Source: Streptomyces sp. NBC_00490 (GTDB lineage Bacteria > Actinomycetota > Actinomycetes > Streptomycetales > Streptomycetaceae). Taken from it: a DNA stretch of 64,000 bases. A program made the translations under genes and the position numbers. The stretch lies in assembly GCF_036013645.1 (NCBI RefSeq), contig NZ_CP107869.1, positions 3,534,001-3,598,000 of the forward strand, in the 5' to 3' direction. Each line of letters begins with the position of its first letter. The first letter of the stretch is position 1. Below the pieces are notes generated by a model that was given only the letters and a program-made list of their open reading frames with translations, did not search any database and was not told the DNA's origin. This document shows, in pieces, positions 3,037-53,579 of the stretch.

Positions 3037-6000
3037 ATGAGGGGTGGCACGTGGATCGATCGGGTCGTCGCCGATTTCGGAGCACAGTGCAAGCAAGTCC
3101 TTGGAGTGGGCGAGCATGAGGCGGGTATCCGTAGCGCGGTCGAAAGTCTGCTTGGCGCGTCAGCCGTGGAATTGGGGCTTCACCTTCGACTCCACCCTGA
3201 GGCCCGCCTGACAGACCTGGGAATTCGCCCAGACTTCGCCGCGAGCCTTGGAGAGAACAAACAGCAGACCTTTGGCTATGTAGAGTTGAAGAGTCCAAAA
3301 AAGAGGGACATAAGTCCGGGCGGCTTACGCGGCAAGGACAGGAAGCAGTGGGAAGCGATGTCCCGCCTCCCCAACGTTCTCTACACCAATGGGCAAACCT
3401 GGATTCTTTACCAGAATGGCCAGCAGCAAGGTAAGATCATCCAGCTGGAAGGCGATATCTACCGGTCCGGACGCCGATTACAGGCGCCAGGCACCACGGC
3501 TGCCGCATTCGAGCGCATGCTCAGCGATTTCCTTTTCTGGAACCCCCGCCCATTGACCACGGTACGTCATCTGGTCAGTACCATAGCGCCGCTGTGCGGA
3601 CTTCTGCGGGACGAGGTGCATGACCGGCTCCGTGAAGAAGAACGATATCGCGGGGACGACGGAATCCGACGCGGCCCAGGGCGCCCGTTCACTGAGCTTG
3701 CGCAGACATGGGAGAATTTCCTCTTCCCTCATACCGACGAGCGAGACCATAAAGTCGCCTTCTCTGATCGCTACGCACAGACCGTGACTTTCGCACTGCT
3801 GCTCGCTCGCGCCGACAAGATATCCCTGGAAAATCGCAATCTACACGAAGTCGGCGATTTACTGGGAGCTGACCACACCGTGATGGGAAGGGCACTTCAA
3901 ATCCTCACCGATCACGTCGGAAAACAGTTCAAGAACAGTCTTGATGTTCTGGTACGGGTAGTGAATGCGGTGGACTGGGATACCATTCTTGAGCGCGAGC
4001 CGGACGCTCACGTACTGCTCTACGAGCACTTTCTTCAGGAGTACGATCCGGAACTCCGTAAAGCCTCGGGAACTTACTACACGCCAGCCGCCCTCGTGAA
4101 AGAGATGGTGCGGCTCGTCGATGAGGTACTGCGCCTGAATCTGAGCTGCTCCAAAGGCTTCGCTGACTCCCGAGTGACGATCATCGATCCCGCCATGGGA
4201 ACAGGTACATTCCTCAGCGCGATCGTCGACCTCGTCGCCGAGCGCCGATCCGCCGGAGGAAACGACGGCTTCCGAGCCGAAGCCGTCGAGGAACTCGCAC
4301 AGCGACTCATAGGCTTCGAGAAGCAGATGGCCGCCTATGCCGTCGCTCAGATGCGCATCTCGCAGACCTTGCGCACCCACGACTCCCATACTCAGCTGAA
4401 TGATCTGCGCCTGCATCTTAATGACACCCTCACAGACCCATGGGAGCGCCCCACCCTGTTCGGTGGCACCGGAGCCGATGTTCTACGCCGGGAGACCGAA
4501 GCCGCTAACCACATCAAGAGAGACGAGGAAGTAACGGTTGTCATCGGGAACCCTCCCGATCGAGAGGACGCACAAGGTGAAGGAGGCTGGATCGAGAAAG
4601 GCTCCGCGAAGCACGGCCCACCGCTACTGGACGACTTCCGACTGCGCGGCACCAACGGCGTCTACGAGAAGAAACTCAAGAACCTCTATGTGTACTTCTG
4701 GCGTTGGGCGACCTACAAGGTATTCGAGCAGCACCACCCCGCGCATCACCGAGGAATAGTCTGCTTCGTGACCACGGCCGGCTTCCTTCGAGGACCCGGT
4801 TTCAGGGGGATGCGTGAGTATCTGCGCTCAACTTGCTCAGAGGGGTGGATAATCGATCTGACCCCGGAAGGTAAGCAGCCTCCCGTACGAACCAGGTTCT
4901 TTCCCGGAGTTCAACAAGAGCTGGCCATAGCCCTCTTCGTACGTAGGGGTGTATCAGAAACGCAGGGCCTAGCACCTGTGCACTACGTGGCGGTGACTGG
5001 CACCCGTGACGAGAAGCAGGCACAGCTGGTCGATTTGCACATAGATGACATCAGCTGGCAACCGTGCCACCACGAGGCGCATGCCCCTTTCACACCGGCC
5101 CCGACAACCCGATGGTCCGAATTTCCCGCCCTGGGCGATATTATGCCCTGGACCCGACAAGGCATGCAGACCAAGCGCACCTGGGTCTATGGAGTCGACG
5201 AGGAGAACTTACGGCAGCGCTGGGACAGGCTGGTTCACGAACCCGACCCGGAAGAGAAGCGAACGCTTTTCAGCGAATCCCGTGACCGGAAAATAGGAAG
5301 CACAGTAGCCTATCGACTCCCCGGCCAACCTGGACGGCCACTCACAGAAGAACGAGGAAGCTGTCCACGTCTGAAGCAAATTCTTCATCGTAGCTTTGAC
5401 CGGCAGTGGATCATACCTGACAGCCGAGTAATCGACTATCCTCGACCAAGCCTCTGGGACGCAGATTGCAATGACCAGTTGTTCCTCATCGAACAACACA
5501 GTCGACCGATAAGGTCAGGGCCCGCCCTTATCTTCTCCGCCCTGATCCCAGATATGCATTGCTTCAACAACGACGGCGGTAGAGTACTGCCATTGCGACA
5601 TTCAGATGGATCACCCAACATCACGCCCGGCCTGCTGGCACATCTCGCGAATTCGTACGGCCTGCCAATGATCTCGCCAGAAGACTTAGCTGCTTACATA
5701 GCCGGTGTCACCGCGCATCCAGCCTTCACTCAGAGATTCCGAGAAGAACTCAACTCTCCGGGCATCAGGATCCCGCTCACTGCTGATCTCCATTTGTGGC
5801 TCGACGCCACAAAAATCGGATATGAACTCATCCGGATATCGACCTTCGGCGCACTCTTCGACAATGCAGGGACCGAGGTCAGCGGCAGCGCAACAGAACC
5901 TGTCACGTACTCGGTACGCGTCGACCCATCAGAACTTCCCTCATCTCTTTCCTATGATCCCGAGCGTCAGGCGCTGCGGATTGGGACGGGAGAGTTTCTG

Positions 6001-6483
6001 GGGGTCACCGAGCGCATGCGTCACTATGATGTGGGCGGCCGAAACGTACTGGACAGCTGGCTCGCCGCACGCTGCAGCGGGCCTAAAGGGCGCAACCTCA
6101 GCGAATTGGACGAGATCCGCAGCGAGCGCTGGAAACCAGGTTGGAGCAGCGAACTCATAGAGGTTCTCAAGGCGCTTCACCACCTCACGAGACTGGAGCC
6201 GCCACAGGAATCCCTACTGGAACGCGTTCTGAGCGGACCACTGATTGATGTAGCCGAGTTGACGCGTCGCGGAGTACTTCAACCTCCCACGTACGCGCGG
6301 GCACCGAGGCAGACGCACACCAACGAGGAGATGCTCCCCGGAATGGGCGATCTCGATGGGCATCCACCGTCGCCGGTACAGCCACTGGCGCCTGCACCGC
6401 CAGAAAGCTCGACCCGTCCGACACTTCAGCCACGTAAACGCCGCAGCTCACAGGAGCGGCCAAAGCATCACCCGCCAGCCTGA
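3037..6483 (+). CDS. Type ISP-like restriction/modification protein: PD-(D/E)xK nuclease fused to N6-adenine DNA methylase
   Basis: This protein of about 1148 residues combines an N-terminal PD-(D/E)xK nuclease-like region (IRPDF at about residue 64, VELK at about 82) with a gamma-type adenine methyltransferase. Motif I is DPAMGTGTF near residue 384. Motif IV is NPPD near residue 504, where NPPY is usual. A long C-terminal target-recognition region resembles the Type ISP C-terminal family. Unlike true type ISP enzymes (LlaGI) it has no helicase. The open frame extends up to a start at 2884, but the family-like sequence begins near ATG 3037 (a GTG at 3049 is also possible), so I start there. 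Its base composition is clearly more AT-rich than its neighbours, and the codon choice is relaxed, which suggests horizontal transfer. No partner gene is intact. Confidence 0.8.
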   Translation: MRGGTWIDRVVADFGAQCKQVLGVGEHEAGIRSAVESLLGASAVELGLHLRLHPEARLTDLGIRPDFAASLGENKQQTFGYVELKSPKKRDISPGGLRGKDRKQWEAMSRLPNVLYTNGQTWILYQNGQQQGKIIQLEGDIYRSGRRLQAPGTTAAAFERMLSDFLFWNPRPLTTVRHLVSTIAPLCGLLRDEVHDRLREEERYRGDDGIRRGPGRPFTELAQTWENFLFPHTDERDHKVAFSDRYAQTVTFALLLARADKISLENRNLHEVGDLLGADHTVMGRALQILTDHVGKQFKNSLDVLVRVVNAVDWDTILEREPDAHVLLYEHFLQEYDPELRKASGTYYTPAALVKEMVRLVDEVLRLNLSCSKGFADSRVTIIDPAMGTGTFLSAIVDLVAERRSAGGNDGFRAEAVEELAQRLIGFEKQMAAYAVAQMRISQTLRTHDSHTQLNDLRLHLNDTLTDPWERPTLFGGTGADVLRRETEAANHIKRDEEVTVVIGNPPDREDAQGEGGWIEKGSAKHGPPLLDDFRLRGTNGVYEKKLKNLYVYFWRWATYKVFEQHHPAHHRGIVCFVTTAGFLRGPGFRGMREYLRSTCSEGWIIDLTPEGKQPPVRTRFFPGVQQELAIALFVRRGVSETQGLAPVHYVAVTGTRDEKQAQLVDLHIDDISWQPCHHEAHAPFTPAPTTRWSEFPALGDIMPWTRQGMQTKRTWVYGVDEENLRQRWDRLVHEPDPEEKRTLFSESRDRKIGSTVAYRLPGQPGRPLTEERGSCPRLKQILHRSFDRQWIIPDSRVIDYPRPSLWDADCNDQLFLIEQHSRPIRSGPALIFSALIPDMHCFNNDGGRVLPLRHSDGSPNITPGLLAHLANSYGLPMISPEDLAAYIAGVTAHPAFTQRFREELNSPGIRIPLTADLHLWLDATKIGYELIRISTFGALFDNAGTEVSGSATEPVTYSVRVDPSELPSSLSYDPERQALRIGTGEFLGVTERMRHYDVGGRNVLDSWLAARCSGPKGRNLSELDEIRSERWKPGWSSELIEVLKALHHLTRLEPPQESLLERVLSGPLIDVAELTRRGVLQPPTYARAPRQTHTNEEMLPGMGDLDGHPPSPVQPLAPAPPESSTRPTLQPRKRRSSQERPKHHPPA

Positions 6484-6525: not shown

Positions 6526-6942
6526 CGGCAGACGAGTCGGGCTGTACGCCGGGTTCTGTCGCCCGACTGCCTCGCGGCGGCCGGGGAGACGGCCATCCAT
6601 CTAGGGCCGGTGTTGCCACCGGCCTCGTGCGGTCTACCCGGGAACTCGGGCGAGCAGCCCTCGGACGTTCCCGCAGAGTGCTTTTTACGGCGCTCCTTTT
6701 GACCTTGCTCCAGGTGGGGTTTACCTAGCTGCCCAGGTCACCCTGGGCACTGGTGGTCTCTTACACCACCGTTTCACCCTTACCGAGGACCGAGGTCCCC
6801 GGCGGTCTGTTTTCTGTGGCACTGTCCCGCGGGTCACCCCGGGTGGCCGTTAGCCACCACCTTGCCCTGTGGAGCCCGGACGTTCCTCGGGAAGCCCCCG
6901 TCAAGGGGACTCCACGCGGCCGTCCGCCCGGCTCGTCTGCCG
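6526..6942 (-). ncRNA. rnpB: RNase P RNA (bacterial class A)
   Basis: The minus strand carries the conserved RNase P landmarks: a 5' GAGGAACGTCCGGGCTCCAC block followed by AGGGCA and GGTGG(C) elements, and the 3' CCTAGATGG...CCGGCGTACAG block. The ends were set by the P1 helix: the 5' CGGCAGACGAGCCGGGC (6942 downward) pairs with GCCCGACTCGTCTGCCG at 6542-6526. The size of about 417 nt fits a Streptomyces class A RNA. The RNA is the catalytic subunit that trims tRNA 5' leaders. The last 42 bases of the upstream transporter gene overlap its 5' end. Confidence 0.95.
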
Positions 6943-11261: not shown

Positions 11262-12636
11262 GGCGGACCCGCAACCGCTCGCCCAGGGACAGACCGGCGC
11301 CCTCGACCCGTCCGATCACCGCCGGTGACTCCAACTGCACCACGCCCACGGTCGGTCGACGCTCCTCGACCTCCACCACGCACCCGTCGAACACCTCCCC
11401 CACCCGGTCCTTCAGCAGGGCCGCCTCGACGATGTCCACGCAGGCCCGCTCCACCGCGCCCGCGCGCCGGCCACCCTCGGCCATCTCACGGGGCAGCGCG
11501 TCGAACGCGGCCAGGACCCAGTCGGGCACCGGCTCCCCCGCCGTCGCCGCGAGGCAGATCTCCGACGCGTACCGGTCGGCCAGGCGGCGCAGTGGTGCCG
11601 TGCAGTGGGCGTAGGGCGCGGCGACGGCCGCGTGGGTGGTGATGTCGGGCAGTACGCCGTCCCGGAAGACCGTGTAACCCGCGCCCCGCAGCAGCGTCGT
11701 GCACTCCTGGAGGAACGCCGCGTGGTGCGGGACATGCGGGTCCAGGGAACGGATCAGCGCCGCGTACGACATGTGGTGCGGCCAGTCGATGTGCAGGGCG
11801 TGGGCGGTGCGGCGCAGCCGGCCGACCGCGCCGTCTGGGGCGGCTGGGAGGGTGCGCAGGACGCCGGTGCCGTGCGCCAGCATCAGGTCCGCCGCCGCCA
11901 TCCCGGTCAGCAGGGAGATCTGGGCGTTCCAGCCGTCGGCGGGGAGCGCGGCGCGGTACGTCAGTTCGTAGGTCCCGTTCCGCTCGACGATCTCCTGTTC
12001 GGGAACGTTCAGCGAGATCCCGCCCCGCTCGACCTCGAGCTCCTCCCGCAGCCGTCCGATCACCTCCAGCAGCGCCAGTGGCTCCTCGGCCGTCTTCGCG
12101 TCGATCTCCTTCTGCACGCCCTCGTAGTTCAGCTTGGCCCGGCTGCGGACCAGGGCGCGGCGGACGTCGACGGCGACGGTACGGCCCTCCGCGTCGAGGT
12201 CGATCGTCCACAGGGCGGCCGGGCGCGTCCGGTCCGGGAGCAGGCTGGCCGCGCCCTCGCTGAGGGAGACGGGGTGCAGGGGGACCTTCTCGTCCGGGAA
12301 GTAGAGGGTCATCACGCGGCGGTGCGTCTCCGCGTCGAGGGCCGAACCGGGGACGACGAAGGCGGCGACGTCCGCGATGGCGTACCGGACGCGGTAGCCG
12401 GTGCCCCGGCGGGAGAGGTGCATCGCCTGGTCGAGGTCGGTGGAGGCGGGCGGATCGATCGTGAACAGGGGGATGTCGGTGGCGTCGTACGACGGGAGGA
12501 CGGGAGGTGTCCCGGCGTCCGCCGAGGCCTGCGGCGGATACGTCTGCGGCACTCCCAGTTCGGTGCGCAGCGCTGCGAGGGCGGCCCGGAGGGGGGCTTC
12601 GGGGGCGCCGGTCACGCGGATGTGGCGGCGAGGCAT
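11209..12636 (-). CDS. RNB-domain ribonuclease (RNase II/R-like)
   Basis: This 475-residue protein contains the RNB catalytic signature: FTIDPPASTDLDQAMHL (metal-binding Asp cluster, about residues 58-74), then YAIADVAAFV and LYFPDEKVPLHPVSLSEG. These enzymes degrade RNA 3' to 5' as hydrolytic exoribonucleases. It is much shorter than E. coli RNase II/R and lacks recognisable cold-shock domains at the N-terminus. The C-terminal 60 residues may be a reduced S1-like barrel (VFDGCVVEVEERRPTVGVVQ). This short form is common in actinobacteria. The 3' end overlaps the convergent MerR-operon gene. Confidence 0.88.
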   Translation of the reverse strand: MPRRHIRVTGAPEAPLRAALAALRTELGVPQTYPPQASADAGTPPVLPSYDATDIPLFTIDPPASTDLDQAMHLSRRGTGYRVRYAIADVAAFVVPGSALDAETHRRVMTLYFPDEKVPLHPVSLSEGAASLLPDRTRPAALWTIDLDAEGRTVAVDVRRALVRSRAKLNYEGVQKEIDAKTAEEPLALLEVIGRLREELEVERGGISLNVPEQEIVERNGTYELTYRAALPADGWNAQISLLTGMAAADLMLAHGTGVLRTLPAAPDGAVGRLRRTAHALHIDWPHHMSYAALIRSLDPHVPHHAAFLQECTTLLRGAGYTVFRDGVLPDITTHAAVAAPYAHCTAPLRRLADRYASEICLAATAGEPVPDWVLAAFDALPREMAEGGRRAGAVERACVDIVEAALLKDRVGEVFDGCVVEVEERRPTVGVVQLESPAVIGRVEGAGLSLGERLRVRLTQADPEPAPTVRFVPA

Positions 12637-47814: not shown

Positions 47815-47945
47815 GCCGGGTCGTCATCACACCCGTACGGGGGGAAGCCGGTGCAATTCCGGCGCTGACCCGCAACCGTGAGCCGTCTCCGCCAGGGGGG
47901 CGGCGAGCCGGATCGCCCCGTGTCGGTACTTGTGACCGGCTCACG
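47815..47945 (+). ncRNA. Cobalamin (B12) riboswitch
   Basis: Between the phosphotransferase and the operon start, the plus strand shows cobalamin-riboswitch features. There is a GGGGGGAAGCCGGTGCAATT segment, then CCGGCGCTGACCCGCAACCG (B12 box region), then GTGAGCCGTCTCCGCCAGG and GGCGAGCCGGATCGCC. The order and wording of these elements match the conserved core of the class. The 3' part could mask the ribosome site (AGGGAGAGG) of the downstream gene by pairing. B12 binding usually turns the genes off. The limits given are approximate. Confidence 0.85.
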
Positions 47946-48052
47946 TGCACCGGCAACCGGCCGGTGCGCGGCACCGTCGAGGTATACGGAGCCGAGCCGC
48001 CGGGGTGTCCCGTGCTGCCCGGCTCCCCCGCAGGGAGAGGCACCCGCCGATC

Positions 48053-49288
48053 ATGAACGTCCGCCGCAGGGCCGCGGTCCTGGCCGCCACCGCAGTGATC
48101 GGTACGGCCGCCCCGGCCGTCGCCACGAGTCCCTCTCCGTCGCCGTCGGTGGCGATACCGGAGGGGTTGTACGGGGGTGGGGATCCGACGTACGACGGGG
48201 TGTGGCGGCAGTCGTTGGCGCTGCTGGCACTGAACAAGCAGGGCGTCATCCCCGCCGAGAAGGCGGAGGACTGGCTGGTCGGCCAGCAGTGCGCGAGCGG
48301 CGCCTTCCCGGCGTTCCGCGCGGACACCGGCAAAGCCTGCGACGCCAAGGTGATGGTCGACACCAACAGCACGGCCGCAGCCGTCCAGGCCCTCGCCACG
48401 ACGTCCAGCAGCCACGAGGACGGGGTGCGCAAGGCGCTCGCCTGGCTCAAGTCCGTACAGAACAAGGACGGCGGCTGGGGCTACACGGCGGGCGGGGCGA
48501 GCGACGCGAACTCCACGTCCGCCGTCATCGGCGCGATCCAGGCCGCGAGCATGGCAGGCACCGGGTCGCTGAAGACGTTCGAGAAGGACGGCAAGTCCCC
48601 GTTCGACGCCCTCCTGAAGCTCGCTCTGCCCTGCTCCCGTGACGGCGCCTTCGCCTACCAGCCCGACAAGAAGGGCAAGCTCACCGCCAACGCGGACGCC
48701 ACGGCGGCAGCCGTTCTCAGCGGCTTCGGCGGACAGCCGCAGGTCTTCCTCCTCGGCAGCGACCAGGCCACCGCGTCCTGCGAGAAGCCGGGAGACTTCA
48801 AGCAGGCGGTCCACAACGGCGCCTCGTACCTCGCCAGGACCATGGCCAAGGACAAGTACCTCAAGTCCGTCCTGCCCGGCGCGGAGGACCAGCCGGATTA
48901 CGGCAACACGGCCGACGCCGTCGTCGCCCTCTCCGCCGCCGAATTCAACGACGAGGCCGCCGTGTCCGTCCACTGGCTGGAGTCCAACGCCCTGAAGTGG
49001 GCCGCGCAGAGCGGTCCGGCTGCCTACGCCCAGCTCATCTTCGCTGCCCGGGCCGGCGGCGTGGACCCGCGCGAGTTCGGCGGCAAGAACCTGGTCGCCC
49101 TGCTGAACGCGACCGGTCCGAAGCCCGAGCACGTGCCCACGGTGAAGGAAGAGCCCCTGCTGGAGGCGAACACCGACGACAACGACAACGGCGCCCTCAC
49201 CGTCGCCTGGACCGTCGGCGGTGGTCTTCTCCTCGGCGCCCTCATCGGCTCCGCCCTGATGTTCCGCGGCCGGAAGCGCGGCCAGTGA
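48053..49288 (+). CDS. Surface-anchored alpha/alpha-barrel protein of the B12 operon (intrinsic-factor-like)
   Basis: This 411-residue protein has a signal peptide (RRRAAVLAATAVIGTAAPAV), an alpha/alpha-barrel with prenyltransferase/squalene-cyclase-like repeats (ALLALNKQGVIPAEKAEDWL, VRKALAWLKSVQNKDGGWGY, AVIGAIQAASMAGTGSLKTF), and a C-terminal membrane helix (VAWTVGGGLLLGALIGSALM) with basic tail. The barrel recalls the alpha domain of animal cobalamin carriers (intrinsic factor, transcobalamin), and control by a B12 riboswitch supports that role. It is the first gene of a five-gene chain that ends with an ECF importer. ATG 48053 has an AGGGAGAGG site. The annotation as B12 carrier is inference. 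Confidence 0.8.
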   Translation: MNVRRRAAVLAATAVIGTAAPAVATSPSPSPSVAIPEGLYGGGDPTYDGVWRQSLALLALNKQGVIPAEKAEDWLVGQQCASGAFPAFRADTGKACDAKVMVDTNSTAAAVQALATTSSSHEDGVRKALAWLKSVQNKDGGWGYTAGGASDANSTSAVIGAIQAASMAGTGSLKTFEKDGKSPFDALLKLALPCSRDGAFAYQPDKKGKLTANADATAAAVLSGFGGQPQVFLLGSDQATASCEKPGDFKQAVHNGASYLARTMAKDKYLKSVLPGAEDQPDYGNTADAVVALSAAEFNDEAAVSVHWLESNALKWAAQSGPAAYAQLIFAARAGGVDPREFGGKNLVALLNATGPKPEHVPTVKEEPLLEANTDDNDNGALTVAWTVGGGLLLGALIGSALMFRGRKRGQ

Positions 49289-49956
49289 TCCGCCGTCGCG
49301 CCGCCGCCCTGATGCTGGCCGCGTTCCTCCTCCTCGGGTTCGCGACCCAGGCCGCCCACGCCGCCGGCTACCGCTACTGGTCCTTCTGGGACCGCACGGG
49401 CACGACCTGGACGTACGCCACCCAGGGCCCCGCCACCTCCGTCCCCGCCGACGGCGACGTGCAGGGGTTCCGTTTCGCCGTCAGTGAGGACTCCGCGGAC
49501 GCGACGAAGCCGCGTGGCACGGCGTCCTTCGCGACGATCTGCGCGCAGACCCCGGCGGCGGAGGGCAGGAAGCGGGTGGCGCTGGTCATCGACTCCGGTA
49601 CGGCACAGGACGCGCCCTCCGGCGAGACTCCGCCCGCGACCCGCACGGCCTGCGCGGTGGTGTCGCAGGACGCGACGACGGCCGAGGCTTTGGCGACGGT
49701 GGCGAAGCCGTTGCGGTACGGCACGAACGCGCTGCTGTGTGCCATCGCCGGATATCCGGAGGCGGGGTGCGGGGAGCAGGTGGCCGGAGGGAAGGAGCCG
49801 ACGTCCCCGCAGAAGACGGCCGCACAGAAGCCGTCCGCAGAGAAGAAGGACTCCGGCGGCGGCCCCTCCGTGGGCCTGTTCGCGGGGGCGGCCGCCGTGG
49901 CGGCCCTGGGCGCGGCGGCGGTGTGGCAGGCGAGGCGGCGCGGGAATGCGCGCTGA
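49285..49956 (+). CDS. Second surface protein of the B12 operon (signal peptide, C-terminal helix)
   Basis: The 223-residue protein has a signal peptide (LMLAAFLLLGFATQAAHA), a beta-rich part that opens with AGYRYWSFWDRTGTTWTYAT, a region with three cysteines (FATICAQTP; TACAVVSQ; LLCAIAGYPEAGC), a Lys/Ser-rich spacer and a final membrane helix (VGLFAGAAAVAALGAAAVW). It may be the small domain that closes over cobalamin in the two-domain fold of intrinsic factor. I do not recognise a named family. GTG 49285 overlaps the previous stop (GTGA), and its own end overlaps the next gene by 11 bases. Confidence 0.75.
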   Translation: MIRRRAAALMLAAFLLLGFATQAAHAAGYRYWSFWDRTGTTWTYATQGPATSVPADGDVQGFRFAVSEDSADATKPRGTASFATICAQTPAAEGRKRVALVIDSGTAQDAPSGETPPATRTACAVVSQDATTAEALATVAKPLRYGTNALLCAIAGYPEAGCGEQVAGGKEPTSPQKTAAQKPSAEKKDSGGGPSVGLFAGAAAVAALGAAAVWQARRRGNAR

Positions 49957-51037
49957 CCTCGCGCGGCCGCGGAACCTGCACGCCGCCGCCTGGTGGCTCT
50001 GGGCCCTCTCCCTCGGTGTCGCGGCCACCCGCACCACCAACCCCCTCCTGCACGCCCTCCTCATCGCCACGTCCGCCTACGTCGTGGTGACCTGCCGCCC
50101 CGACGCCCCCTGGTCCCGCTCCTACTCCGCCTTCGTCAAGCTCGCCCTCGCCGTCCTCCTCGTCCGCCTCGCCTTCGCCGTCACCCTCGGCTCCCCTCTC
50201 CCCGGCACCCATGTGATCGTCACCCTTCCCGAACTTCCCCTCCCCGACTGGGCGCAGGGCATCCGGCTGGGCGGCGAGGTCACCGGCGAGACACTCCTCT
50301 TCGCGTTCTACGACGGGCTGAAGCTGGCGACCCTCCTCATCTGCGTGGGCGCGGCGAACGCCCTCGCGAACCCGAGCCGGCTCCTCAAGTCCCTGCCGGG
50401 CGCCCTCTACGAGATCGGCGTGGCGGTCGTCGTCGCCCTCACCTTCGCGCCGCACTTCATCGCCGACGTCCAGCGCGTGCGCGCCGCCCGCCGGTTGCGC
50501 GGCCGTCCGGACAAGGGCATGCGGGGCCTGCTGCACGTGGGACTCCCGGTCCTGGAGGGCGCCCTCGAGCGGTCCGTCGCCCTCGCCGCCGCGATGGACG
50601 CGCGCGGGTACGGCCGTACCGCCGACGTCCCGACCCGTGTCCGGCGTACGACGACCGCGCTCACCCTCGGCGGTCTGCTCGGCATCTGCGCGGGAACGTA
50701 CGGTCTGCTCACCGCCGAAGGCGGCACGTACGGTCTGCCCGTGCTCCTCGGCGGAGCGGCCGCCGCCCTCGCGGGTCTGCGCCTCGGCGGACGGCGTACC
50801 CCGCGCACCCGCTACCGGCCGGACCGCTGGAACGCGCGCGCGTTCCTCGTCGCCGGTTCCGGCGCGGTGGCGGCGGTGGCACTGTTCCTCGCGTCCGCGA
50901 CGGACCCCGCCGCCCTGCACCCCGGTGTGATCCCGCCGGTCGCCCCCACCCTGCCCCTCTGGCCCGCGGCGGCGATCCTCGTCGGACTGCTCCCGGCCTT
51001 CATCGCCCCGAACGTCCCCCACAAGGAGCCGTCGTGA
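49946..51037 (+). CDS. ECF transporter T component (EcfT/CbiQ-like)
   Basis: The 363-residue integral membrane protein contains the characteristic EcfT motifs: RAARRLRG (residues about 180-187) and AAAMDARGYG (about 215-224), the two Ala-Arg-Gly signatures of the coupling helices that touch the ATPases. About six to eight membrane helices are visible (LWALSLGVAAT, FVKLALAVLLVRLAFAVT, FYDGLKLATLLICVGAANAL). The C-terminal half has additional helices. It couples ATP hydrolysis to the substrate-binding S component. ATG 49946 overlaps the preceding gene; the stop overlaps the next gene's GTG (GTGA). Confidence 0.9.
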   Translation: MRADLARPRNLHAAAWWLWALSLGVAATRTTNPLLHALLIATSAYVVVTCRPDAPWSRSYSAFVKLALAVLLVRLAFAVTLGSPLPGTHVIVTLPELPLPDWAQGIRLGGEVTGETLLFAFYDGLKLATLLICVGAANALANPSRLLKSLPGALYEIGVAVVVALTFAPHFIADVQRVRAARRLRGRPDKGMRGLLHVGLPVLEGALERSVALAAAMDARGYGRTADVPTRVRRTTTALTLGGLLGICAGTYGLLTAEGGTYGLPVLLGGAAAALAGLRLGGRRTPRTRYRPDRWNARAFLVAGSGAVAAVALFLASATDPAALHPGVIPPVAPTLPLWPAAAILVGLLPAFIAPNVPHKEPS

Positions 51038-52779
51038 TCCGCTTCGAGGATGTCTCCGTGACGTACGACGGGGTGGCCGAACCGACCGTCCGGGGCGTCG
51101 ATTTCGAGGTCCCCGAGGGTGAACTCGTCCTGCTCGTCGGGCCGTCCGGCTCCGGCAAGTCGACCGTCCTCAACTCCGTCTGCGGTCTCGTCCCGCACTT
51201 CACCGGCGGCACCCTGCGCGGCCGGGTCACGGTGGCCGGCCGTGACACCCGTACGCACAAGCCGCGTGAACTCGCCGACGTGGTGGGGACGGTGGGCCAG
51301 GACCCGCTGTCCCACTTCGTGACGGACACGGTCGAGGACGAACTCGCCTACGGCATGGAGTCGTTGGGCCTCGCGCCGGACGTGATGCGGCGCCGGGTGG
51401 AGGAGACCCTGGACCTCCTGGGTCTGACCGACCTCCGTGACCGGCCCATCGCCACCCTCTCCGGCGGCCAGCAGCAGCGCGTGGCGATCGGCTCGGTCCT
51501 CACCCCGCACCCGAAGGTCCTCGTCCTCGACGAACCGACCTCCGCGCTGGACCCGGCCGCCGCGGAGGAGGTCCTCGCGGTCATCCAGCGTCTGGTCCAC
51601 GACCTCGGGACGACGGTCCTGATGGCCGAGCACCGCCTGGAGCGGGTCATCCAGTACGCCGACCAGGTCGCCCTCCTGCCGGGCCAGGGAGCGCCCCCGG
51701 TGCTGGGCGACCCGGCCGAGATCATGGCAGTGTCCCCGGTGTACCCGCCGGTGGTGGACCTGGGGAGGCTGGCGGGCTGGTCCCCACTGCCCTTGACGGT
51801 GAGGGATGCGCGCCGGAGGGCAGGAGACCTGCGCGAACGTCTGAACGCGGGGTCGGCCGACGCCGCCAAGGGGCGCGGGGAACGGCGCGATCAGCCACAG
51901 ACAGGTCGCACCCGCCAACACTCCACACCCCCCACCCCAGTGGGCGCCCCCACCCGCCGCCGCTGGTTCACCCGCACCACCTCCACCCCACTCCCCCCGT
52001 CCCCCCACACCGCCGAAGTGCACGACGTCTCGGTCCGCCGCGCTCACGTCGAGGCCCTCCGCCACATCACCCTCACCGTCACCCCCGGCGAGACCATCGC
52101 CCTCATGGGCCGCAACGGCGCCGGCAAGTCCACGCTGCTCAACACCCTCGTCGGCCTCGTCGAACCCTCCTCCGGTTCCGTCCGGGCAGGCGGAGCCGTA
52201 CCGCACCGCACGGCTCCCAAGGACCTCATACGCCGCGTGGGCCTCGTACCGCAGGAGCCCCGCGACCTCCTCTACACCGACACGGTCGCCGCCGAATGCA
52301 CCGCCGCCGACGCCGACGCGGGCGCCGCCCCCGGCACCTGCCGGAGCCTCGTCTCCGAGCTCCTCCCGGGCGTGAGCGACGACACCCATCCGCGCGACCT
52401 CTCCGAGGGCCAGCGGCTCGCGCTCGCCCTGGCCGTCGTGCTCACCGCCCGCCCTCCCCTGCTCCTCCTGGACGAGCCGACCCGCGGACTGGACTACGCG
52501 GCGAAGGCCCGGCTGGCCACCCTCCTCAGCGCGCTCGCCGCCGAGGGCCACGCCATCGTGCTGGCCACGCACGACGTGGAACTGGCCGCCGAGATCGCCC
52601 ACCGGGTCGTCCTGCTCGCCGACGGCGAGGTGATCGCGGACGGCCCCGCGGCGGACGTCATCGTCGCCTCCCCCTCCTTCGCCCCCCAGGTCAGCAAGAT
52701 CCTGGCCCCACAGAAGTGGCTCACGGTGACACAGGTACGGGAGGCACTCGAGGCGGGCGTCGAGGGGGGCCTCGCGTGA
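51034..52779 (+). CDS. ECF transporter fused ATPase (EcfA1-EcfA2)
   Basis: The 581-residue protein holds two ABC ATPase domains. The first (about 1-235) has Walker A GPSGSGKST, signature LSGGQQQR and Walker B VLVLDEPTSALD. The second (about 330-575) has Walker A GRNGAGKST, signature LSEGQRLALAL and Walker B LLLLDEPTRGLD. They are joined by an arginine- and proline-rich linker (about 260-325) whose DNA contains a Streptomyces interspersed repeat. This fused architecture is usual for actinobacterial ECF importers. The GTG 51034 overlaps the EcfT stop; the end overlaps the S component. Confidence 0.93.
   Translation: MIRFEDVSVTYDGVAEPTVRGVDFEVPEGELVLLVGPSGSGKSTVLNSVCGLVPHFTGGTLRGRVTVAGRDTRTHKPRELADVVGTVGQDPLSHFVTDTVEDELAYGMESLGLAPDVMRRRVEETLDLLGLTDLRDRPIATLSGGQQQRVAIGSVLTPHPKVLVLDEPTSALDPAAAEEVLAVIQRLVHDLGTTVLMAEHRLERVIQYADQVALLPGQGAPPVLGDPAEIMAVSPVYPPVVDLGRLAGWSPLPLTVRDARRRAGDLRERLNAGSADAAKGRGERRDQPQTGRTRQHSTPPTPVGAPTRRRWFTRTTSTPLPPSPHTAEVHDVSVRRAHVEALRHITLTVTPGETIALMGRNGAGKSTLLNTLVGLVEPSSGSVRAGGAVPHRTAPKDLIRRVGLVPQEPRDLLYTDTVAAECTAADADAGAAPGTCRSLVSELLPGVSDDTHPRDLSEGQRLALALAVVLTARPPLLLLDEPTRGLDYAAKARLATLLSALAAEGHAIVLATHDVELAAEIAHRVVLLADGEVIADGPAADVIVASPSFAPQVSKILAPQKWLTVTQVREALEAGVEGGLA
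51867..51918. repeat. Streptomyces-type interspersed repeat inside the ABC ATPase linker
   Basis: The text CCAAGGGGCGCGGGGAACGG followed by CGCGATCAGCCACAGACAGG and TCGCACCCGCCAAC resembles a short palindromic repeat I have met many times between Streptomyces genes (GGGGCGCGGGGAACTGCGCG and so on). It is in frame within the linker between the two ATPase domains, adding the residues AKGRGERRDQPQTGRTRQ. No further copy was seen in this window. Confidence 0.6.
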
Positions 52780-53579
52780 AGACCGTGAAGGCCGTCCGTC
52801 TCGGCCCCTTCTCCCTCGCCGCCCTCGGCCTCGCCGGGGCGGTTGGTGTCGTCGCCTTCGGGTGGCCGTTTCTCGCGCCGCCTACCTCGCAGGTCGGGAC
52901 GCATACGCAGGACGCGCCGTGGTTGTTCGCGGGGTTGTTGCTGCTGCTGGTGGCCGTGGTCGGGGCGGCGATCTCGGAGGCGGGGCTGGGGCCGAAGGCG
53001 GTGGCGATGATGGGCGTGCTGGCCGCGACCGGCGCCGCGCTGCGGCCGATCGGTGCCGGGACCGCCGGGATCGAGCCGATGTTCTTCCTGATGGTGCTGA
53101 GCGGCCGGGTGCTCGGCCCCGGGTTCGGGTTCGCGCTCGGCTCGACGACGATGTTCGCCTCGGCGCTGCTGACGGGTGGGGTGGGCCCGTGGATGCCGTT
53201 CCAGATGATGGCGATGGGCTGGTTCACGATGGGCGCGGGTCTGCTGCCGGCCCGGGTCCGCGGCCGGGCGGAGCTGCGGCTGCTCGCCCTGTACGGCTTC
53301 CTGGCGGCCTTCGCCTACGGCACGGCGATGAACCTCGCGGGCTGGCCCTTCATGGGCGCGCTGGCGTCGAACATCGCCTTCGTCCCCGGGGACCCGGTCC
53401 CCGAGAACCTGGCCCGTTTCCTCGCCTACTGCATGGCCACATCCCTCGGCTGGGACCTGGGCCGGGCGGTGTGCACGGTCGTCCTGACGTTCCTGCTCGG
53501 TCCGGCCGTGCTCAGGGCGCTACGCAGAGCCACCCGGCGCGCGGCCTTCGAGAGCGCGGTCACATTCGAACCTCGTTGA
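52776..53579 (+). CDS. ECF transporter S component (substrate-binding membrane protein)
   Basis: The 267-residue protein has six or seven helices (FSLAALGLAGAVGVVAFGWPFLA, WLFAGLLLLLVAVVGAAISEA, ATGAALRPIGAGTAGIEPMF, GSTTMFASALLTGGVGPWMPFQMMAMGWFTMGAGLLPA). The motif LRPIGAGTAGIEPMFFLM and the loop with GPGFGFALGSTTMFAS correspond to the S component family with the conserved ALRP segment, as in ECF-type cobalamin or cobalt transporters of actinobacteria. GTG 52776 overlaps the ATPase stop (GTGA). The substrate is inferred as cobalamin from the upstream riboswitch. Confidence 0.88.
   Translation: MKTVKAVRLGPFSLAALGLAGAVGVVAFGWPFLAPPTSQVGTHTQDAPWLFAGLLLLLVAVVGAAISEAGLGPKAVAMMGVLAATGAALRPIGAGTAGIEPMFFLMVLSGRVLGPGFGFALGSTTMFASALLTGGVGPWMPFQMMAMGWFTMGAGLLPARVRGRAELRLLALYGFLAAFAYGTAMNLAGWPFMGALASNIAFVPGDPVPENLARFLAYCMATSLGWDLGRAVCTVVLTFLLGPAVLRALRRATRRAAFESAVTFEPR

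Follow-up and report, generated by a model that had tools for sequence, protein, structure and literature searches.

What would two surface proteins with predicted membrane anchors contribute to an importer operon that stands behind a leader resembling a vitamin B12 riboswitch? The question is raised by a locus of Streptomyces sp. NBC_00490, which we analysed within a stretch of 64,000 nucleotides (contig NZ_CP107869.1, positions 3,534,001 to 3,598,000 of the forward strand; here called the window). In this locus the leader is followed by the genes of two surface proteins, termed P1 and P2 in the following, and by those of an energy-coupling factor (ECF) importer, i.e. a coupling subunit (EcfT), a fused double ATPase (EcfA-EcfA') and a substrate-binding S component. 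The most plausible reading of the two surface proteins is that of a transcobalamin-like pair, split and circularly permuted, in a widespread B12-linked ECF operon. This reading draws on the operon structure and its conservation, the association with riboswitches, a modelled toroid fold, two permutations seen in sequence comparison and a link to absent B12 synthesis. The original prediction, which had seen in the locus a B12 uptake operon with surface proteins like a split intrinsic factor, is partly supported as a whole. The features are, in window coordinates:

47820..47940 (+), cobalamin-riboswitch-like leader, Rfam core match at 47843-47904
48053-49288 (+), P1, ATG start, 411 amino acids; SCO2321 family, NCBIfam NF053823, 542 bits
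49187..49270 (+), C-terminal hydrophobic segment of P1 (putative membrane anchor), residues 379-406, Kyte-Doolittle scan
49285-49956 (+), P2, GTG start, 223 amino acids; SCO2322 family, NF040672, 226 bits; PF28005
49855..49932 (+), C-terminal hydrophobic segment of P2 (putative membrane anchor), residues 191-216, Kyte-Doolittle scan; GPS-CTERM
49946-51037 (+), EcfT, CbiQ-like transmembrane coupling subunit, 363 amino acids; PF02361, 28.2 bits, cut-off 25
51034-52779 (+), fused EcfA-EcfA' double ATPase, 581 amino acids, two ABC_tran stretches
52776-53579 (+), S component, substrate-binding membrane subunit, 267 amino acids; PF12822

Fold and domain order of the surface proteins

Besides the C-terminal segments listed above, both surface proteins are hydrophobic at the N-terminus, and P2 matches the GPS-CTERM domain of NCBIfam (32.2 bits, cut-off 28); the proposal of two secreted, membrane-anchored proteins agrees with this predicted topology. 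The NCBIfam names of both families are locus tags only, and PF28005.1 is precomputed on P2 and on its listed relatives. The P1 ectodomain (residues 28-373) was modelled as an alpha6/alpha6 toroid of 12 helices with high confidence (predicted local distance difference test, pLDDT, 91.9; predicted template modelling score, pTM, 0.90), matching the alpha/alpha barrel that had been expected from the sequence repeats. For P2 (residues 27-170) the model is a small beta domain (pLDDT 92, pTM 0.87).

By sequence comparison, both window proteins are circular permutations of relatives that carry the same halves in the opposite order. As a reference for P2 we collected 76 beta-domain sequences of the unpermuted type and removed 45 of them (loci below L165, and L179; window-type half matches). 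In the 31 sequences kept, a strand-helix half is followed by a half with the motif YWSYW, and in the window P2 these halves are swapped. Aligned with this family by hhalign, native P2 covers 34 columns with a score of 81, and P2 cut in the linker covers 94/106 columns with a score of 145. In a BLASTP comparison with locus L165, residues 74-175 of P2 fall on 497-585 (E 3e-13), and the segment that begins at P2 residue 31 aligns from position 586 on (E 2e-7), i.e. the two segments are contiguous on the relative and swapped. In four genomes (G013, G036, G054 and G140) we found two adjacent partial matches each to the SCO2322 family, the one to the C-terminal profile part lying upstream of the one to the N-terminal part.

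The same pattern is found for P1. Its residues 32-221 align with 164-353 of the L166 protein (BLASTP, E 4e-29) and its residues 250-339 with 62-151 (E 4e-10), and the coverage of the profile increases from 168 to 277 columns when P1 is cut at one region. Matched against the N-terminal part of the unpermuted toroid, the C-terminal part of P1 reaches a score of 100.9; once that N-terminal part is removed the score drops to 40.8, the maximum in 60 column shuffles used as control being 18.9. The score of 40.8 means that some repeat signal is present in the P1 toroid; since the N-terminal part gives 100.9 and the remainder 40.8, toroid repeats alone are insufficient, and repeat alignment as the sole cause of the apparent P1 permutation was rejected. 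At loci L165-L167 both proteins are unpermuted and highly similar to both halves; these loci look like an unpermuted sister of the window type.

How closely does the beta domain resemble that of transcobalamin? DUF4430 is the transcobalamin beta-domain family, and we built a DUF4430 profile from 25 sequences of the phylum (30 loci, minus one unrecovered open reading frame (ORF) and four short loci). Against it, the unpermuted beta family scores 24.2 (28.7 in the other query order) and permuted P2 scores 30.5, and none of 150 column shuffles reaches either score (maxima 16.9 and 19.8). The unpermuted relatives align with DUF4430 in DUF4430's own order. The scores suggest a similarity between the beta family and DUF4430 that is weak but not random. 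Nine unpermuted P2-type ORFs gave no DUF4430 match in a Pfam scan, and among PDB sequences the profile of the unpermuted beta family found a best E of 0.095, with nothing judged related. In an operon of the unpermuted type at L169, a DUF4430 gene (E 4.7e-8, near 11482-11628, + strand) lies directly downstream of the toroid gene.

Among the matches listed in fold and PDB sequence searches, P1 has terpene cyclases, prenyltransferases, sugar epimerases and complement C3d as neighbours. Squalene-hopene and drimenyl diphosphate cyclases share its alpha/alpha toroid fold and are, among these matches, its closest structural and sequence relatives. Squalene-hopene and other terpene cyclases carry the catalytic motif DxDD, whereas P1 lacks it; in the alignment used for the P1 model and for motif counts (12 unpermuted rows and 38 others), D.DD occurs somewhere in 3 of 50 rows. 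A terpene cyclase activity of P1 was therefore rejected. Conserved in the P1 family is instead the motif DTNST. SCO2321 has appeared once in print, where it is called a 'hypothetical protein' and its signal sequence served as the inspiration for a cell-penetrating peptide (PMC9237094).

Operon structure and riboswitch association

The operon is real. Its order is leader, P1, P2, EcfT, EcfA-EcfA' and S component, and the ORF coordinates give overlaps of 4 (P1/P2), 11 (P2/EcfT), 4 (EcfT/EcfA-EcfA') and 4 bases (EcfA-EcfA'/S), just as had been described. The 80 closest loci carry Streptomyces titles, except one titled 'Actinobacteria bacterium' (L027). In 54 of the 57 among them with enough flanking sequence all five families lie on the same strand (exceptions: L009, L032 and L053), so the arrangement is not due to chance. 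Of 40 loci chosen from other genera or as second copies, 34 have P2 followed by the EcfT, EcfA and S genes on the same strand. EcfA-EcfA' contains two full sets of ATPase motifs (two Walker A, two signature and two Walker B). The S component reaches 28.2 bits against PF12822 (ECF_trnsprt), slightly below the cut-off of 30.7, and also weakly matches ECF-ribofla_trS; of its relatives, that at L168 lies above the cut-off (36.5 bits) and that at L148 has no match. Completeness of the importer, as proposed earlier, is thus borne out by EcfT and the double EcfA and falls short at the Pfam cut-off of the S component.

The leader of the window matches RF00174 with 31.0 bits (E 2.8e-6). It does not reach the gathering score of 31.5 and is for this reason missing from a default-threshold Rfam list. 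In an alignment of 40 sequences its core is almost invariant, and one stem shows two-sided changes that keep the pairing at four pairs (in 13, 2, 5 and 11 sequences), the same pairs being broken or gapped in 4, 2, 2 and 7 sequences; overall, covariation contributes little (-0.78 of -31.94 kcal/mol). The gathering score is reached at the same place in 7 of 11 relatives searched, the closest (L001) remaining below it, and a similar leader was found in 95 of 110 loci (nhmmer; some loci incomplete). In 22 of 34 other loci a B12 riboswitch at gathering score lies on the same strand upstream of P1- or P2-type genes (9/12, 7/10 and 6/12 in three batches; three Rfam families; placement judged by eye against gene coordinates). 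Three further cobalamin riboswitch matches occur in the window's own genome, two of them preceding genes for CobD/CbiB and for the large chain of ribonucleotide reductase. The third (L084, C1:1576987-1577134) is sub-threshold at 30.8 bits and has no clear target. Around the P1- or P2-type genes of L170, L172 and L175 there are 5, 4 and 3 cobalamin riboswitches above gathering score within 14-16 kb, some of them on the opposite strand.

B12 need and the likely substrate

Is the operon linked to a need for B12? Across 246 genomes of the class, SCO2322 family matches above cut-off occur in 83 (counted as P2-positive) and CobK/CbiJ above cut-off in 113. Outside the window's own genus, cobK is present in 7 of 61 P2-positive genomes vs 85 of 163 P2-negative ones (Fisher 9e-9; genomes with only weak unpermuted-type matches count as P2-negative). 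With the own genus included the trend is the same and weaker (28/83 vs 85/163, p 0.007), which leaves 55 of 83 P2-positive genomes without CobK above cut-off; eight of these 55 are <90% complete (by eye). All 55 carry a marker for a B12-dependent enzyme: 39 have methylmalonyl-CoA mutase (by eye), and the remaining 16, all of one family (f25), have a B12-binding domain and NrdJ above cut-off. In 7 of these 16 a match to a FecCD/BtuC-type permease is missing and in an eighth (G091) it is weak, other types of B12 importer not having been searched. At least one further genome of this family (G125) has no P2 match. The P2 of L145, from the same family, shares 93% identity with a protein listed under the name Candidatus Nanopelagicaceae bacterium.

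A genome that is unable to make B12 and keeps the operon would need a corrinoid, not cobalt. The absence of one marker gene is no proof of such inability; nevertheless, we consider it very likely that the operon serves corrinoid uptake rather than cobalt uptake. An importer of the CbiMNQO type, feeding cobalt into de novo B12 synthesis, would agree with the match of EcfT to CbiQ, and cobalt importers, too, are controlled by B12 riboswitches. In a Pfam scan, however, the five operon proteins matched neither CbiM nor CbiN, and the 55 P2-positive genomes without CobK above cut-off also speak against it. Cobalt import was rejected on this genome distribution and appears highly improbable as an explanation.

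A different question is which corrinoid is preferred. The substrate could be an incomplete corrinoid (cobinamide) or another cobamide instead of cobalamin, with the same architecture as in the explanation given below. The characterised B12 importer ECF-CbrT of Lactobacillus delbrueckii also takes cobinamide (PMC5997447), and the window's genome, with CobK and a riboswitch-linked CobD/CbiB gene, could finish precursors. We give this variant a small chance.

Proposed surface capture and comparison with known systems

The best explanation, and in our view a probable one, is a corrinoid uptake operon in which surface capture by P1 and P2 is combined with ECF import. When B12 is scarce, the leader RNA would permit expression. 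P1 and P2 would be exported and tethered to the outside of the membrane through their C-terminal helices. The permuted transcobalamin-type beta domain of P2, together with the P1 toroid where present, may then form a complex that captures the corrinoid between the two, similar to transcobalamin; for this capture step, too, the evidence seems to us to tip towards yes. The bound corrinoid would be passed to the S component, with EcfT and the double EcfA ATPase driving import. The core would thus consist of P2 and the ECF complex, with P1 as an added capture lobe. More tentatively, and with slightly less than even confidence, we propose an evolutionary picture: a transcobalamin-like carrier came apart into two surface proteins, both of which were permuted in a single actinobacterial lineage; the beta half turned into the steady partner of a dedicated B12 ECF importer and the toroid into an optional lobe, with beta-only versions feeding B12 to streamlined freshwater Nanopelagicaceae.

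Several observations weigh against the best explanation. Of the 34 loci mentioned above, 10 have no B12 riboswitch at gathering score and in 2 (L169 and L184) the only one lies elsewhere or on the opposite strand. The EcfT, EcfA and S neighbours are missing in 6 of the 40 chosen loci (L154, L157, L163, L164, L176 and L177), and the window's own genome has CobK. The S component and its profile have no sequence match to any PDB chain or solved S component, including CbrT. Neither transcobalamin nor intrinsic factor appears in the P1 matches listed (best 50 per fold search) or in the best 60 of 72 PDB sequence matches. The link to the DUF4430 profile is weak (hhalign probability 24-61%; E-values from such single comparisons are not database E-values), and P2 has no Pfam DUF4430 match (PF14478) at E up to 1. 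Since native P2 scores 30.1 (49 columns) and permuted P2 30.5 (56 columns), the DUF4430 comparison supports similarity, not permutation. Finally, the P2 model has no usable PDB fold match (Foldseek, VIA-align). As suggested by the relatives, this might be explained by its circular permutation, and for a small permuted domain a missing match is no evidence of a new fold. Of the earlier idea of a small beta-rich protein, perhaps the matching beta domain, the confident beta model stands and the likeness to DUF4430 is weak.

P1 in particular is dispensable. A P1 match at E 1e-30 or better is present in 55 of the 83 P2-positive genomes and missing in 28 (among these, G004, G021 and G084 lie at contig edges, and locus L112 of G004 shows a partial P1), and the cut-off of the SCO2321 family is met only in 22 genomes of the own genus. 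At L145, L147, L152, L155, L162 and L182-L184, P1 is missing and P2 remains beside the ECF genes. All this would fit an S component that imports B12 alone, as in ECF-CbrT, with P2 as a structural accessory subunit (CbiN is such a subunit for CbiM) and P1 as a toroid with another role, e.g. wall anchoring. ECF-CbrT moves B12 in proteoliposomes without a surface protein (PMC5997447). It is alike in its ATP-driven ECF-type import with an S component; it differs in that its ECF module also serves S components other than CbrT and in that it works without a surface protein, and the window S profile does not match CbrT.

However, relatives of both proteins are fused at L174 (6233-9919, - strand), where a single ORF of 1228 amino acids behind a cobalamin riboswitch joins an unpermuted P2-type beta domain, an immunoglobulin I-set domain and a toroid, i.e. 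a single-chain actinobacterial version. In addition, both proteins are apparently permuted in the window type and neither is in L165-L167. The fusion and the joint permutation state suggest a shared job of P1 and P2. The beta domain also resembles DUF4430 more than column shuffles do, and at L164 P1 and P2 stand behind an adenosylcobalamin riboswitch, the 12 kb read there showing no ECF genes. Import by the S component alone seems unlikely to us, and capture by the pair is preferred.

The principle of such capture is already known, as Burroughs et al. (2007) predicted transcobalamin-like proteins in CbiO/CbiQ operons. As described there (PMC1796856), exported transcobalamin-like beta-grasp (SLBB) proteins, some fused to alpha/alpha toroids, are generally encoded in such operons. 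The bacteria concerned usually have no key enzymes for making B12, and B12 scavenging was predicted; the clade is assigned to low-GC Gram-positives and planctomycetes and, more rarely, to euryarchaea. Common to these systems and the operon in the window are surface proteins that are exported, a beta-grasp domain (putative in the window), an alpha/alpha toroid or a second SLBB protein that is fused or operon-linked, CbiO/CbiQ and a predicted role in scavenging B12; unlike in the SLBB systems described there, the window proteins are on separate chains and both appear circularly permuted. A text search of the paper finds neither Streptomyces nor riboswitch nor permut-. Animal intrinsic factor and transcobalamin are two-lobed B12 carriers with a toroid and a small beta domain, to which P1 and P2 would correspond by analogy. 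The animal carriers are one chain in canonical order, whereas the window pair consists of two chains from overlapping genes, is apparently permuted, is predicted to be membrane-anchored beside an ECF importer and is predicted to bind B12.

In the literature searched, with subscription journals mostly outside the search, there is no description of this system. The excerpts of PMC4350170, PMC2667541 and PMC3766115 do not describe it; those of PMC1949818 mention circular permutation for another beta-grasp family, and in those of PMC7527133 and PMC12381374, which treat vitamin auxotrophy among freshwater bacteria, no transporter of this kind is named. What is new to this literature is the split, doubly permuted version, not the principle; this narrows the earlier claim of a new uptake system accordingly. 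If correct, our reading would provide a concrete B12 uptake route for a large group of actinomycetes, including cobK-less genomes with B12-dependent enzymes, relatives of Nanopelagicaceae among them. It would also mean that circular permutation affected both members of a protein pair with no change to their operon, which is unusual, and would open to testing whether surface capture proteins, which ECF-CbrT does not need, can be used by ECF importers.

Some minor observations remain. The P1 and P2 genes of L164 occupy positions 3875-6084 (+), and the ORF after them resembles a sugar kinase (by eye). The fused ORF of L174 perhaps contains a second toroid-like stretch (by eye). Elsewhere in the window, a bacterial RNase P class A RNA was found at 6529-6935 (-) with 299.8 bits.

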